Under the pieces are notes generated by a model that had not been told where the DNA came from, did not search any database, and saw only the letters and a program-made list of their open reading frames with translations. Position numbers and translations under genes: made by a program. Positions 5,411-47,286 of a stretch of DNA of 64,000 nt are shown one piece after another. The stretch's first letter is position 1. The number at the start of each line of letters is the position of its first letter. This DNA comes from an uncultured Pelagibacteraceae bacterium (GTDB taxonomy: Bacteria; Pseudomonadota; Alphaproteobacteria; Pelagibacterales; Pelagibacteraceae), in contig CABXYN010000002.1 of the NCBI GenBank assembly GCA_902516395.1, forward strand, positions 1-64,000. The letters run 5' to 3'.

Positions 5411-7483
5411 ATGTTTAAAGTAGTAAAAAAAGAAATAGAAGTTAGTGGAAAAAAATTAAGTTTAGAGACCGGGAAAATAGCAAGACAAGCAGATGGAGCA
5501 ATTATAGCTCAATGTGGTGAAACAGTTATCTTAGCAACAGTTGTTGGTGCAAAGAAAGTAAATCCTGATATGGATTATTTTCCATTATCTGTTAATTACC
5601 AAGAAAAATATTATGCTGGTGGAAAAATCCCTGGTGGCTATTTTAAAAGAGAAGCAAGACCAACTGAGAGTGAAACATTAATATCAAGATTAATTGATAG
5701 ACCAATTAGACCTTTGTTTCCTGATGCATTTAAAAATGAAGTACAATTGTTACCAACAGTAATTTCATATGATGCTGAAAATCAACCAGATATTTTAGCA
5801 ATTAACGCTTCATCAGCAGCTCTAGCTATCTCGGGGATGCCATTTATGGGCCCTGTTGGAGCTTCTAGAGTTGGCTTTATTGAAGGAAAGTACGTCCTTA
5901 ATCCATCTAAAAAAGAATTAGAAAAATCTAAGTTAGATCTTGTTGTAGCTGGAACTAAAGATGCAGTATTAATGGTCGAATCTGAAGCAAATGGATTGAC
6001 GGAACAAGAAATGCTAGATGCTGTGAAGTTTGGACACGAAGGATTTGTCCCGGTAATAGAAATGATCGAGGAACTAGCAAAAGAGTGTAGAAAACCCGAA
6101 TGGACAGTTGAGAAAAAGGATCTTTCAGAGGTAAAAAAGAAATTAGAAGATAAATTTACTGAAGATTTAAAGAAAGCATTCTCTACCATAGATAAACAAG
6201 ATAGATCAAATCAAATTTCAGAAATTACTGAGAAGGCTAAAAAATTATATGAAGAAAATGAGGATTACTCAGATCTAGATGTAAACTCACAGCTTAAAAA
6301 TTTAGAAAAATCAATAGTAAGAACTGATATTCTTAAAAACAAAAACCGTATTGATGGAAGAGGACTTTCAGATGTTAGGCCTATTATGTGTGAAGTTGGA
6401 GTTTTACCAAGAGCACATGGTTCAGCATTATTCACTAGAGGAGAAACTCAAGCAATTGTGGTTACCACTCTAGGTACATCTGATGATGAACAACGTTTAG
6501 AAAGCTTAGATGGACAACATAGAGAAAGATTTATGCTTCATTACAACTTTCCTCCTTTTTCAGTTGGTGAAACTGGAAGAATTGGAACTGGCAGAAGAGA
6601 AGTTGGTCACGGAAAATTAGCATGGAGAGCAATTAATTCGTCATTACCTTCAAAAGAATCGTTCCCATATACTTTTAGAATTGTATCGGAGATAACAGAA
6701 TCTAATGGCTCTTCTTCAATGGCGTCTGTTTGTGGAGCATCTCTTGCACTTATGGATGCAGGTGTTCCTATAAAAGAGCCAGTTGCAGGTATTGCTATGG
6801 GTTTAATTAAAGAAGGTGACGATTTTAGTGTTCTATCTGATATTTTAGGTGACGAAGATCATTTAGGTGATATGGACTTTAAAGTTGCTGGAACTAAAGA
6901 TGGTATTACATCATTACAAATGGATATCAAAATTACTGGTATCACATTTGAAATAATGGAACAGGCCTTAAATCAAGCTAAAGATGGAAGAATTCATATT
7001 CTTGGTGAAATGAATAAAGCTTTAAGTAAGTCTAGAGATGATGTTGGAAAACACACTCCAAAAATGGAACAAGTTACTGTTGATAAAAAAGATATCGCAG
7101 CTGTGATTGGAAAAGGTGGGGCAACAATCAGAGAGATTGTTGAAAAATCAGGTGCTAAAGTTGATGTCAATGATGAGGGTGTAGTAACAGTTGCTGCTCC
7201 TGATGAAGAGTCTCGAAATATTGCTATGCAAATGATTAAAGATATAACTGCTAAGGCTGAATTAAATAAAATTTATAACGGAAAAGTTATGAAAATTATG
7301 GAATTTGGTGCATTTGTTAACTTCTTAGGTAAACAGGATGGACTTGTTCACATTTCTGAGCTTGCAGATAAAAGAGTTGCTAAAGTAACGGATGTTGTCA
7401 AAGAAGGTGACGAAGTAAAAGTAAAAGTTATAGGATTTGATAGAGGAAAAGTTAAATTATCTATAAAGCAGGCTGCTATATAG
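5411..7483 (+). CDS. pnp: Polyribonucleotide nucleotidyltransferase
   Basis: Two RNase PH domains, KH ([15 protein letters not shown]) and C-terminal S1 domain. Confidence 0.98.
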
Positions 7484-42042: not shown

Positions 42043-42119
42043 TGGTGCGCCTGCTAGGAGTTGAACCCAGAACCTCCTGGTCCGTAGCCAAGCGCTCTAT
42101 CCAATTGAGCTACAGGCGC
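42043..42119 (-). tRNA. tRNA-Arg (ACG), encoded CCA
   Basis: Reverse strand GCGCCTGTAGCTCAATTGGATAGAGCGCTTGGCTACGGACCAGGAGGTTCTGGGTTCAACTCCTAGCAGGCGCACCA; anticodon loop CTACGGA. Confidence 0.96.
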
Positions 42120-42196: not shown

Positions 42197-45100
42197 ATGA
42201 ATCTAGATTTATTAGTTCCTGATATAGGAGACTTTGAAAACGTTGAAATAATTGAAGTACTTGTAAAAAAAGGTGACAAAATCAACAAAAATGACCCTGT
42301 TGTCACTTTAGAAAGTGATAAATCAAGTGTTGAGGTACCATCCAATTATGAAGGCACAATTGAAAATATAAATGTAAAAATTGGTGATAAAGTTTCAAAA
42401 GGTGACTTGATACTAACTCTATCTTCAGAAAATAAAGATGAAAGCGAGAAAATTAGCAAAACTTTAGATGAAAAAATTCCACCTTCAACCGAGAAATTAA
42501 TAGAGGAAGCAGAAACTGCTACAAAACCTGATATAAAAGTTGAAACAAAAGTTATAGAGCCAACGCAAATCAAGCAAACAAGATTAGTTAATGAAGTTAA
42601 AATGGTCAGTAGTAACGATGATATTGATCCAATTGAAACTAAAGAGTGGTTAGATTCATTAAGTGCAGTTCTGCAAAATGATGGCTCTGAAAGAGCTCAT
42701 TTTTTAATTAAACAATTAATTGATCAATCTTATAAAGCTGGATCAAAAATTCCTCATACCCAAACTACGCCTTACATAAATACTATACCTCCTGAAGAGG
42801 AAAAAAGATCACCTGGAGATCAAAACATAGAACGTAAGTTAAGATCTTTAATTAGATGGAATGCTGCTGCGATGGTAGTAAGAGCAAATAAAAAACATCC
42901 TGAACTTGGCGGTCACATAGGAACATTTGCATCAGCTGCAACCTTGTACGATGTTGGGATGAATCATTTTTGGCGAGCAAAGAATAATAAATTCGGAGGT
43001 GATCTAGTATATTTTCAGGGTCATAGTGCACCAGGAATGTATGCAAGAGCTTTTCTTGAAGGAAGATTAAATGAAAAACAGTTAGATAGATTTAGACAAG
43101 AAGTACAAACTGGTGGACTTTCATCTTATCCTCATCCTTGGCTAATGCCAAACTTTTGGCAGTTTCCAACAGTTTCAATGGGTATTGGTCCAATGTTAGC
43201 AATATATCAAGCAAGATTTATGAAATACCTAATCAATAGAGGATTAATTAAAGATGAGGGAAGAAAAGTTTGGGCTTTTCTTGGAGATGGAGAAATGGAT
43301 GAGCCCGAGTCACTTGGGGCAATTGGTTTAGCAGCGCGTGAAAATTTAGATAATTTAATATTTGTTGTAAACTGTAACTTACAAAGATTAGACGGTCCAG
43401 TAAGAGGAAATGGAAAAATTATTCAAGAATTAGAAGGTATTTTTCGAGGTGGTGGCTGGAACGTTTTAAAAGTTATTTGGGGATCTTATTGGGACCCACT
43501 TTTAGCAAATGATAAGACGGGACATTTAGTAAAAATTATGAATGAGACCGTAGATGGTGAATATCAAGCATTTAAAGCAAGAAATGGGCTTTATGTAAGA
43601 GAAAAGTTTTTTGGCAAATATCCTGAAACATCAGAATTAGTCTCATCAATTTCAGATACTGATATTTGGCGGCTTAATAGAGGAGGCCACGATCCTCATA
43701 AAGTTTATGCTGCATATGATAAAGCGGTCAATCACAAAGGAAGCCCCACAGTCATAATAGCCAAAACTATAAAAGGTTATGGTATGGGTAAAAGTGGTGA
43801 AAGTGTAAACACTACTCACCAACAAAAGAAATTGGATGTTGATGATTTAATGTATTACAGGGATAGGTTTGATGTTCCTTTAACAGATTCTCAAGTTAAA
43901 AATATTGAATATTTCAAACCAGACGAAAACTCTGAAGAAATTAAATACTTAAAAAAAAGAAGATTAGAACTTGGTGGATTTATACCAGAGAGAACGTCAT
44001 ATTCAAAACCGATTAAAGCCCCAGTGAAAGATATTTTTGATTTTATGAAAAAGTCTACTGGCGAAAAAGAAATGTCTACAACAATGGCATTAGTAAGAAT
44101 GTTAACTAATCTTTTGAGAGATAAAAATGTTGCACCAAAATTGGTTCCGATTATTCCCGATGAAGCTAGAACATTTGGAATGGAGGGTTTCTTTCAAAAA
44201 ATAGGTATTTATGCTCATGAAGGTCAAAAATATGAGCCAGAGGACTCAGCACAACTTTCATCTTATAGAGAAGAGAAAAGTGGTCAGGTATTAGAAGAAG
44301 GAATTACTGAAGCTGGTTCAATGTCTTCTTGGATAGCAGCTGGAACAGCATATACAAATCATGATATTGAAATGATACCAATTTATCTTTTCTATTCTAT
44401 GTTTGGCTTTCAAAGAATTGGGGATTTTGCTTGGGCTGCAGGAGATAGTCAAGCGAGAGGCTTTTTAATTGGTGCGACTGCAGGAAGAACAACACTTGCA
44501 GGAGAAGGTCTTCAACACCAAGATGGTCATAGTCATTTGTTAGCATCAACAATTCCAAACTGCATTTCTTATGATCCGACATTCCATTATGAATTAGCTG
44601 TGATTTTTAGAGAAGGTTTAAGAAGGATGCATGAAAAAAATGAAAATATTTTTTATTATATTACAACAATGAACGAAAATTACTCTCACCCTGCAATGCC
44701 AGATGATTGTGAGGATGGAATTCTCAAGGGAATGTATAAAATTAAAGAAACATCAGGTTCTAAAGAAGCAAAAATTCAATTATTAGGCTCTGGAACAATA
44801 CTAAGAGAAATGATGGCAGCATCAGAAATTCTTAAAAAAGAATATCAGGTCGATAGTGAAGTTTGGAGTGTTACTAGTTTTAATGAGTTAAGAAAAAATG
44901 GAATGGAAGTTGAAAGATTTAACCTTCTAAATCCTACAGAAACAAATAAAAAATCATATGTAGAAGAATGTTTAGGAAAACAACAAGGTCCTATCCTTAC
45001 AGCCACTGACTATATGAGAATAAATGCTGATCAAATAAGACCTTTTACAAAAAAGAGCTTTTATTCATTAGGTACAGATGGATATGGAAGAAGTGATACA

Positions 45101-45262
45101 AGAAAAAACTTAAGAAATTTTTTTGAAGTTGATAAAGAACATATTGTTGCTTATAGCCTTAGCGTCTTAGCCAATGAACAGCTTGTTGCATCAAAGTATG
45201 CTGAGGATGCATTCAAAAAGTATAAAATTGATAAAAACAAACCCATGCCAACAAAAATGTAA
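42197..45262 (+). CDS. aceE: Pyruvate dehydrogenase E1 (homodimeric AceE type) with N-terminal lipoyl domain
   Basis: N-terminus MNLDLLVPDIGDFENVEIIEVLVKKGDKI...TLESDKSSVEVPS is a lipoyl domain (Lys42); remainder is AceE (FQGHSAPGMYARAFLEGRL, FLGDGEMDEPES, QHQDGHSHL). Confidence 0.95.
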   Translation: MNLDLLVPDIGDFENVEIIEVLVKKGDKINKNDPVVTLESDKSSVEVPSNYEGTIENINVKIGDKVSKGDLILTLSSENKDESEKISKTLDEKIPPSTEKLIEEAETATKPDIKVETKVIEPTQIKQTRLVNEVKMVSSNDDIDPIETKEWLDSLSAVLQNDGSERAHFLIKQLIDQSYKAGSKIPHTQTTPYINTIPPEEEKRSPGDQNIERKLRSLIRWNAAAMVVRANKKHPELGGHIGTFASAATLYDVGMNHFWRAKNNKFGGDLVYFQGHSAPGMYARAFLEGRLNEKQLDRFRQEVQTGGLSSYPHPWLMPNFWQFPTVSMGIGPMLAIYQARFMKYLINRGLIKDEGRKVWAFLGDGEMDEPESLGAIGLAARENLDNLIFVVNCNLQRLDGPVRGNGKIIQELEGIFRGGGWNVLKVIWGSYWDPLLANDKTGHLVKIMNETVDGEYQAFKARNGLYVREKFFGKYPETSELVSSISDTDIWRLNRGGHDPHKVYAAYDKAVNHKGSPTVIIAKTIKGYGMGKSGESVNTTHQQKKLDVDDLMYYRDRFDVPLTDSQVKNIEYFKPDENSEEIKYLKKRRLELGGFIPERTSYSKPIKAPVKDIFDFMKKSTGEKEMSTTMALVRMLTNLLRDKNVAPKLVPIIPDEARTFGMEGFFQKIGIYAHEGQKYEPEDSAQLSSYREEKSGQVLEEGITEAGSMSSWIAAGTAYTNHDIEMIPIYLFYSMFGFQRIGDFAWAAGDSQARGFLIGATAGRTTLAGEGLQHQDGHSHLLASTIPNCISYDPTFHYELAVIFREGLRRMHEKNENIFYYITTMNENYSHPAMPDDCEDGILKGMYKIKETSGSKEAKIQLLGSGTILREMMAASEILKKEYQVDSEVWSVTSFNELRKNGMEVERFNLLNPTETNKKSYVEECLGKQQGPILTATDYMRINADQIRPFTKKSFYSLGTDGYGRSDTRKNLRNFFEVDKEHIVAYSLSVLANEQLVASKYAEDAFKKYKIDKNKPMPTKM

Positions 45263-46189
45263 ATGTCTGATCAATCAAATAAAATATCTGCAAGTCCAAA
45301 AGTTAGAAAATTTGCAAGAGAACTTGGAGTAGATATAAATAATGTCAAGGGAACAGAGAGATCAGGTAGGGTTGTTGAAAAAGATTTAAAAGACTTTGTC
45401 TCATCTAGAATCAATCATCCTCAGAATAATAGTCAAAAACAAGAAGAAAAAATTATTAAAAATGAATATCAACACTCAGATTTTGGGGAAGTTGAAATTA
45501 AAGATATTCCTAGAGTAAAAAAAATAGCAGCTCCACATCTTGTAAATTCGTGGACAAACATTCCACATGTGACTAACCATGATGAGGCTGATATTACAGA
45601 AATGGAAGAATTTAGAAGCTCAATAAAAGATAATTATACAGGAGAAAGAATAAAAATTACTCCTCTTGCATTTATTATAAAAGCATTGGTACTTTCACTT
45701 AAAAAATTTCCATCATTTAATTCATCAATTGATGATATTGAAAATGGAAAGATTACTTTTAAAAAGTATTTTCATGTTGGTATCGCAGTTGATACTCAAC
45801 ATGGACTTATGGTTCCTAAAATTAGAGATGCTAATCAAAAAGATATCAATCTGTTAAGTGAGGAATTAAAAAAAGTAAGTAATGATTGTAGAAATTTAAA
45901 AATTGATAAAAAAGAGTTCTTTGGAGGATCAATGACTATCACAAGCTTAGGTGGCATAGGTGGTTCGTTTTTTACACCAATAATTAACTTTCCAGAAGTT
46001 GCTATACTTGGCGTTGGTAGAAGTTATAAAAAACAGGTATTTATTGATGGTAAATTTGTTCCGAGAACCATGCTTCCACTATCTCTCTCATATGATCACA
46101 GAATTATAGATGGTGCTGAGGCAGCGAAGTTTAATAACGAATTAAAAGATAATCTTGGGTCTAATTTTGCATATAACTTGAGTAAATGA
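45263..46189 (+). CDS. aceF: Dihydrolipoamide acetyltransferase E2 lacking a lipoyl domain
   Basis: Starts with peripheral-subunit-binding domain (ASPKVRKFARELGVDINNVKGTERSGRVVEKDL) then CAT core ending in LPLSLSYDHRIIDGAEAAKF; no lipoyl domain. Confidence 0.93.
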   Translation: MSDQSNKISASPKVRKFARELGVDINNVKGTERSGRVVEKDLKDFVSSRINHPQNNSQKQEEKIIKNEYQHSDFGEVEIKDIPRVKKIAAPHLVNSWTNIPHVTNHDEADITEMEEFRSSIKDNYTGERIKITPLAFIIKALVLSLKKFPSFNSSIDDIENGKITFKKYFHVGIAVDTQHGLMVPKIRDANQKDINLLSEELKKVSNDCRNLKIDKKEFFGGSMTITSLGGIGGSFFTPIINFPEVAILGVGRSYKKQVFIDGKFVPRTMLPLSLSYDHRIIDGAEAAKFNNELKDNLGSNFAYNLSK

Positions 46190-47286
46190 TTACTAAAATT
46201 GAAATACTATCAGATGATGTGCACGTCCACTTTAGTGGAGAAAATTCTGAAATTTTTCCTAATATTTGGCTAAGAGATCATGCAAAAGATGAGCAAAATT
46301 GGGATAAAAGGTCTAGCCAAAGGAAAACATATACAGCAGCATTAGATATAAATTTAAAAGTTAAAAAGGCAGAAATAATTGAAAATGGAAAATATTTGTG
46401 TCTCTCATGGCCTGATTTAGAAAAACCAGTTAAATATTCATCTGAGTTTCTAAATAATAATAAATTAAAAAAGAAAAAAGAAGTAAAATCCAATTTAAAA
46501 ATCTGGAAAGCTAATGAAATAAGAGAAGAAATTTTTTTAGATTATAATTCAATTTTATCAAATGAAGGATTTAGAAATTTTTTGAAAAATATTCATGACT
46601 ATGGATTTTCAGTAATTAAAAACTGTGAACCCAATTTAAAGTCTGTTGAAACAATTGCAAATAGAATTGGTTACGTAAGAAACTCTATATTTGGAGGACT
46701 ATGGAGTTTTGAGTCAGATGAAAATAAAGCTGATAGCGCATACACTCAAGATGAACTAAGACCTCATACAGATTCAACATATAGTAATGACGCTCCTGGA
46801 TTACAATTATTACTATGTTGTGAATATACTGCTAGAGGTGGTGAATCGATTATGGTTGATGGATTAAAAATAGCAGAGACAATAAAAAAAGAAAACCAGC
46901 CGATGTATGAATTAATGACAAAAATAAATGTTAAGGGAAATTATATCGGTGATGGTGTTTATCTTGAGGCTGAAAGACCAATATTTAAGTTAAATGAAAA
47001 TAATGAAATAGTTCAAGTTAGTTTTAATAATTATGATCGAGCACCATTTAGATTTGAAAAAGATTTAACATTAAAGTTTTATGAAGCGATAAAAAAATTT
47101 GATCTTATTGCTAACAATAAAGATTTTCAGTGGCGACATATCCTTAAACCTGGAGAACTTCTAATATTTAATAATTGGCGAATACTTCATGGTAGAGGAT
47201 CGTTTAATGGAGTTAGAAAAATGTCTGGATGTTATATTAACAAAGAGGATTTTGACAGCTCTTGTAAGTTAAACGGAATAAATTAA
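46186..47286 (+). CDS. TauD/gamma-butyrobetaine-hydroxylase-like 2-oxoglutarate dioxygenase
   Basis: ELRPHTDSTYSNDAPGLQLLLC, distal His/Arg WRHILKPGELLIFNNWRILHGRGSF; N-terminal WLRDHAKD. Confidence 0.87.
   Translation: MITKIEILSDDVHVHFSGENSEIFPNIWLRDHAKDEQNWDKRSSQRKTYTAALDINLKVKKAEIIENGKYLCLSWPDLEKPVKYSSEFLNNNKLKKKKEVKSNLKIWKANEIREEIFLDYNSILSNEGFRNFLKNIHDYGFSVIKNCEPNLKSVETIANRIGYVRNSIFGGLWSFESDENKADSAYTQDELRPHTDSTYSNDAPGLQLLLCCEYTARGGESIMVDGLKIAETIKKENQPMYELMTKINVKGNYIGDGVYLEAERPIFKLNENNEIVQVSFNNYDRAPFRFEKDLTLKFYEAIKKFDLIANNKDFQWRHILKPGELLIFNNWRILHGRGSFNGVRKMSGCYINKEDFDSSCKLNGIN

Follow-up and report, generated by a model that had tools for sequence, protein, structure and literature searches.

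A lipoyl swinging arm probably carried by the homodimeric E1 of pyruvate dehydrogenase in SAR11 bacteria

Analysis of a 64,000-nucleotide stretch from an uncultured Pelagibacteraceae bacterium (positions 1 to 64,000 of contig CABXYN010000002.1, assembly GCA_902516395.1; hereafter the window) points to a pyruvate dehydrogenase (PDH) complex of the SAR11 group in which the lipoyl swinging arm is very likely part of the E1 component. The window aceE gene encodes a homodimeric E1 that begins with a lipoyl domain, and the adjoining aceF gene encodes a dihydrolipoamide acetyltransferase (E2) that has none. In textbook 2-oxoacid dehydrogenase complexes the arm is on E2, and the E2 core sets symmetry, arm number and substrate channelling. 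We consider it likely, with only slightly less assurance, that SAR11 carries the arm on its homodimeric E1, that in several independent lineages the arm is solely on E1, and that E2 serves as scaffold and acetyltransferase. This proposal is drawn from sequence comparison: the domain make-up of the two proteins, the lack of another PDH arm in near-complete relatives, conservation of the lipoyl lysine, purifying selection on the E1 lipoyl domain and apparent multiple losses of the E2 domain. The source genome is a SAR11 assembly of 1.07 Mb in 47 contigs, estimated to be 77% complete.

Domain architecture of the window AceE and AceF

The two genes and their domains are as follows.

42197..45262, plus strand: aceE, homodimeric pyruvate dehydrogenase E1 with an N-terminal lipoyl domain, 1021 aa (Pfam, NCBIfam aceE equivalog, PDB 1l8a alignment)
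42212..42421, plus strand: lipoyl domain, E1 residues 6-75 (Biotin_lipoyl 2e-19, AlphaFold2 model, dN/dS)
42320..42322, plus strand: Lys42, predicted lipoylation site in the ESDKSSVE turn (conserved lysine, position in the model)
42422..42616, plus strand: 65-residue charged linker rich in Glu, Lys, Ser and Thr, E1 residues 76-140 (dN/dS 0.15, low pLDDT)
42617..45250, plus strand: complete AceE core, E1 residues 141-1018; its N-terminal segment is the counterpart of the E. coli E1p region binding the peripheral subunit-binding domain (PSBD) of E2 (1l8a alignment, PMC6270654)
45263..46189, plus strand: aceF, dihydrolipoamide acetyltransferase E2 without a lipoyl domain, 308 aa (Pfam, alignments, model)
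45287..45388, plus strand: peripheral subunit-binding (E3_binding) domain, E2 residues 9-42 (Pfam E3_binding 6e-12)
45494..46156, plus strand: acetyltransferase catalytic domain, E2 residues 78-298, with the DHR..(D/N)G motif (Pfam 2-oxoacid_dh 1e-74, alignment with E. coli E2p 7b9k)

The window E1 departs from the usual AceE architecture, which has no lipoyl domain. Pfam placed a Biotin_lipoyl domain at residues 6-75 with an E of 2e-19 (69 bits; cut-off 22), together with Transketolase_N, PDH_E1_M (E 5e-104) and Transketolase_C_1. Residues 139-1019 scored above the NCBIfam aceE equivalog cut-off TIGR00759 (1435 bits against 859.9), and residues 6-883 of E. coli AceE (PDB 1l8a) aligned with residues 141-1018 at 1143 bits, with the active-site histidines kept in the His407 loop (NTTHQ for NIAHQ) and in GGH, QGH and DGHSH. 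These results agree with the first-pass annotation of this DNA, which had read a canonical lipoyl domain and a linker ahead of a full AceE and had placed the Lys42 codon at 42320-42322. The ESDKSSVE sequence holds the lysine in a DK turn expected of the lipoylated type, and in an AlphaFold2 model the E1 N-terminus forms a small, beta-rich fold, Lys42 lying between strands 34-39 and 44-48. The best PDB matches of the modelled N-terminus included lipoyl domains, from Neisseria P64K (1gjx) and from E. coli E2 (1qjo). The predicted local distance difference test score (pLDDT) was below 50 at residues 80-91 of the modelled fragment, in the linker.

The aceE stop directly abuts the aceF start. A Pfam scan of the 308-aa AceF open reading frame (ORF) found no lipoyl domain, giving E3_binding at residues 9-42 and 2-oxoacid_dh at 78-298 only, as the first-pass annotation had claimed in reporting that AceF starts directly at the E3-binding domain. 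The protein aligns with E. coli E2p (7b9k) from the PSBD onward, and its AlphaFold2 model matches the E. coli and Azotobacter E2 cores. The PDH E2 family features of a PSBD and a catalytic domain with a DHR..DG motif are present; the one to three N-terminal lipoyl domains of that family are absent. Scores fell under the family cut-offs of TIGR01348 (330 bits against 552) and PRK11854 (310 against 722), and NF008815, a 308-position NCBIfam E2 model, was matched end to end, also below its cut-off.

Search for another arm, E2 or E3

The window genome encodes three lipoyl-fold proteins (AceE, SucB and AccB) and two E2-type acyltransferases (SucB and the armless AceF). In four relatives that have this gene pair (G004, G122, G177 and G091; 92-97% complete), the only lipoyl-fold proteins were AceE and SucB- and AccB-sized ones, apart from one extra, very weak and partial match in G091. 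The first-pass annotation had proposed looking elsewhere in the genome for a second, lipoyl-bearing AceF; neither a second PDH E2 nor another PDH arm was found in the window genome or in these four relatives. Across the 398 genomes of the order searched, all 305 with an AceF-type match had one such match each.

No E1-beta was found among the Transket_pyr matches of the window genome; the frames concerned fit SucA, transketolase and DXS by length and context, and a PDH of the E1-alpha/beta type was rejected as a candidate. The window E1 is itself not the E1-beta (transketolase pyr) subunit of an alpha2-beta2 PDH, as the model for that subunit, NF008854, matched only residues 3-122, the lipoyl domain and linker (22 bits against a cut-off of 454, E 5e-5). 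The E3 of window-clade relatives is a single clear copy of 471-474 aa, encoded after sucB and without a lipoyl domain; that of the window genome is interrupted by a contig end. LipB and LipA are both encoded in the window genome.

The fusion is conserved across the SAR11 family

Single-cell and metagenome assemblies gave the same gene pair at 27 further loci of the window clade (some being the same genome in two collections, and two with an incomplete or broken E1), indicating that it is not an assembly error. Within the order, 311 of the 398 genomes had an AceE-type match; the gene is carried by one family (f1) and not by the sampled members of its sister family (f2). One or two lipoyl domains were present in every SAR11 AceE ORF with a readable 5' end (103 of 103, some redundant between collections), the exceptions being four ORFs whose start falls at a contig edge and a fifth whose linker contains a frameshift. 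The lipoyl-AceE fusion is thus conserved across the SAR11 family. At locus L137 (genome G216), the frame is broken in the linker before the AceE core and the lipoyl domain is intact in the adjacent frame, through either assembly error or a split gene.

Outside SAR11 the fusion was seen in none of 47 related loci, nor was it detected in the 110 AceE-bearing outside genomes of a 299-genome phylum sample, where alignments started at query residue 113 at the earliest. Because the phylum search hid weak separate matches, eight unusually long outside AceE frames were read directly, and none had a lipoyl domain.

Several variants were noted among the loci surveyed. Two tandem N-terminal lipoyl domains precede AceE in ORFs of ~1111-1133 aa at L155, L160, L161 and L163-L165. 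A second AceE-like paralogue of ~890 aa, ~53% identical and without a lipoyl domain or adjoining E2, occurs in some SAR11 (L167, L172-L174 and L187-L189); an N-terminal fragment of it scores slightly higher with the AKGDH_not_PDH model, and its presence is in keeping with the several aceE copies that PMC10030771 reports for subclade IIIa. Two genomes of the window genus, G079 (97% complete) and G110 (95%), gave no AceE or AceF match, nor did the sister family f2, and the two genomes held only two lipoyl-fold proteins each, SucB- and AccB-sized; PDH seems to be absent from some SAR11 lineages, these two and the sister family f2 among them. One complete SAR11 genome has, at L185 (G012:C1:1031000-1033500), a lipoyl domain fused to a protein resembling the sugar acetyltransferase type, with E1-alpha/beta-like genes beside it. 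In an outside alphaproteobacterium (L180, G482, 6242-7000), the ORF after aceF begins with a lipoyl domain and is possibly an E3 of the P64K type.

Maintenance of the E1 arm and loss of the E2 arm

The lipoyl lysine was kept in all 111 SAR11 E1 lipoyl domains. Across 26 window-clade sequences, the lipoyl domain had a ratio of nonsynonymous to synonymous substitution rates (dN/dS) of 0.022, against 0.025 in the AceE core and 0.15 in the linker; judged by these ratios, the E1 lipoyl domain of the window clade is under purifying selection as strong as that on the catalytic core.

The AceF encoded beside SAR11 aceE has zero, one or two lipoyl domains, most still carrying one, and the E1/E2 combinations seen were 1/0, 1/1, 1/2, 2/1 and 2/2. 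Parsimony gave five changes between armed and armless E2 on a tree of the E1 core and seven on a tree of E1 plus E2, and a single clade of armless E2 was rejected by the approximately unbiased (AU) test (763 log units worse, p-AU 5e-9). The E2 lipoyl domain was thus lost about 5-7 times independently, with the window lineage among these cases. Of the two directions, loss is the simpler, the alternative being regain of an E2 arm by copying from E1; loss of the lipoyl domain from E1 was never seen in SAR11. In other SAR11 genera (L155, L158, L159 and L166), a second AceF lipoyl domain has Asp or Glu in place of the lysine (EDDES, EDEEN) and reads as a dead arm retained as a domain. The E1 linker has a median of 65 residues where E2 is armless and 54 otherwise; a tie between the longer linker and the armless E2 was rejected, as the same trend appeared in about three of five independent pairs and was not significant.

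The E1 and E2 lipoyl domains of a locus are typically 62% identical, and the window E1 domain is nearer to SAR11 AceF lipoyl domains (median 62% identity) than to those of outside AceF (49%) or SucB (33%). Main-genus SAR11 E1 and E2 domains also grouped together against outside E2 domains (99/97) in a lipoyl-domain tree of 82 columns, whose deep forks are unreliable. Most likely, the E1 lipoyl domain was duplicated from the neighbouring aceF before the SAR11 family diversified. The first-pass annotation had described the domain as transferred from E2 to E1. The arm does lie on E1, but a single transfer is not upheld: because the E1 fusion spans the family and an E2 lipoyl domain persists in most SAR11 relatives, the history is better described as duplication, with later E2 loss in some lineages.

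Proposed working of the complex

We propose that Lys42 would be lipoylated by LipB and LipA and that E1 would dock on the E2 PSBD by means of its customary N-terminal segment, located immediately after the new linker. In E. coli, nuclear magnetic resonance (NMR) placed the E2 PSBD-binding site in the N-terminal region of E1p (PMC6270654), and the PSBD binds E1p or E3, the arms being borne by E2 (PMC8421416). In SAR11, the tethered lipoyl domain would be reductively acetylated in an E1 active site and would swing on its linker of ~65 residues to the E2 catalytic core, where the acetyl group would be passed to CoA. Reoxidation would fall to E3 (the shared Lpd, whose gene follows sucB) bound to other PSBDs, so that E2 would act only as scaffold, docking site and acetyltransferase. 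After the E1 duplication, the E2 lipoyl copy may have become dispensable and then been lost. Since E2 appears to have lost its own arm in several lineages, the textbook enzyme machine must be wired differently there.

Several points weigh against this proposal. We infer that Lys42 is lipoylated, that E1 docks on the PSBD and that catalysis proceeds with the arm on E1. With the window genome only 77% complete, the analysis leans on relatives of 92-97% completeness. Two relatives gave no LipB and a third no LipA, probably through assembly gaps. The lipoyl-domain tree, with only 82 columns, fixes neither the direction nor the number of duplications. Finally, a Met at E1 residue 136, close to where AceE usually starts, is peculiar to the window clade.

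This last feature underlies one rival explanation, namely that a short armless E1 is also made from Met136 (codon 42602-42604), which lies almost exactly at the ordinary AceE start, and that the lipoyl-bearing form is a minor or regulatory isoform. We regard this as very improbable. In 41 of 45 SAR11 rows the 25 residues preceding the AceE core contain no Met, so that no ATG start for an armless E1 exists there, and an internal translation start is not conserved across SAR11; the window site has no evident Shine-Dalgarno sequence. A short E1 would moreover leave the need for an E1 arm in place because E2 has none. Another rival is a hybrid complex of PDH and 2-oxoglutarate dehydrogenase (OGDH), in which SucB lends its lipoyl domains to the PDH E1 and the armless AceF, and the E1 domain is secondary. 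Apart from AceE, SucB was the one 2-oxoacid dehydrogenase subunit of the lipoylated type found in the genome, E3 is shared, and arm sharing in trans has been reported for OdhA and E2p (PMC8146983). Such sharing is unlikely, although the least unlikely of the rivals, given that the E1 lipoyl domain is as constrained as the core, keeps its lysine throughout and is of the AceF rather than the SucB type.

An assembly of 47 contigs that is 77% complete could also be thought to show an artefact of assembly here, or to lack a lipoyl-bearing AceF encoded in its unassembled part. This explanation, to which we give hardly any weight, is already contradicted by recurrence of the gene pair in the 27 further loci, by near-complete relatives with no lipoyl-bearing E2 except SucB, and by the single AceF-type match per matching genome.

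Comparison with known systems

The proposed arm on E1 resembles that of the Zymomonas mobilis and alphaproteobacterial E1-beta PDH (NF008854), with a lipoyl domain at the N-terminus of an E1 polypeptide. The Zymomonas E1, however, is a heterotetrameric alpha2-beta2 enzyme of another E1 family, whereas that of SAR11 is of the homodimeric AceE type. Zymomonas-type E2 keeps its own lipoyl domain, and the window E2 has none. As in Neisseria meningitidis P64K, whose lipoyl domain (1gjx) is the closest solved fold, and in Alcaligenes eutrophus E3, the lipoyl domain lies on a non-E2 component; unlike in SAR11, the carrier is E3, and the E2 of the Neisseria and Alcaligenes type also keeps lipoyl domains. 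In Mycoplasma hyopneumoniae, with an E1 of the alpha/beta type, the arm is likewise off E2 but is carried by E3 instead of E1. Passages of PMC7873978 describe the lipoyl domain of this E3 (PdhD), with K42 lipoylation detected by western blot and mass spectrometry. They also list as exceptions to E2-borne arms the E3 of Alcaligenes, Neisseria and Mycoplasma and the E1 of Zymomonas, the carrier in the latter being E1-beta by the title of Ute et al. 1999, cited there. The first-pass annotation was right that lipoyl domains off E2 are known on E1-beta, but its list was incomplete, as these passages give E3 also.

The SAR11 complex shares with E. coli AceE/AceF a homodimeric E1 (878 residues aligned) and a homologous PSBD and catalytic E2 domain, but the 886-residue E. 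coli E1 begins at the AceE core, and E. coli E2 carries three lipoyl domains (PMC8421416). As in the corynebacterial OdhA/E2p hybrid, an acyltransferase would work with the lipoyl domain of another polypeptide (PMC8146983), although in that hybrid the arm stays on E2p and the 2-oxoglutarate E1 carries the acyltransferase. SAR11 aceEF have been reported, with lipoyl never mentioned (PMC10030771). An AceE-type carrier was new to the first-pass annotation, and our search, with most subscription papers and all preprints outside it, found no report of an arm on homodimeric AceE, alone or with an armless E2. The combination of the two appears to be undescribed.

Described as the oceans' most abundant group of heterotrophic bacterioplankton (PMC10030771), SAR11 would depart from the E2-arm rule, across a whole family, in the central enzyme that converts pyruvate to acetyl-CoA. 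That the E2 arm was lost repeatedly, and that no such loss was seen on E1, suggests that an arm on E1 suffices. If so, arm number would be set by the bound E1 chains and not by the E2 core, and active-site coupling would be changed. The SAR11 lineages with different E1/E2 lipoyl-domain combinations offer a natural series for the role of arm location. Automatic annotation can miss the change, as the E1 scores as an ordinary aceE and the window AceF falls below its family cut-off.

Genes neighbouring aceEF

A dioxygenase-like ORF at 46186-47286, which appears related to gamma-butyrobetaine hydroxylase, has a start that overlaps the aceF stop, suggesting one operon with aceEF. Directly upstream of aceE, a tRNA-Arg gene (anticodon acg) lies on the minus strand at 42043-42119.

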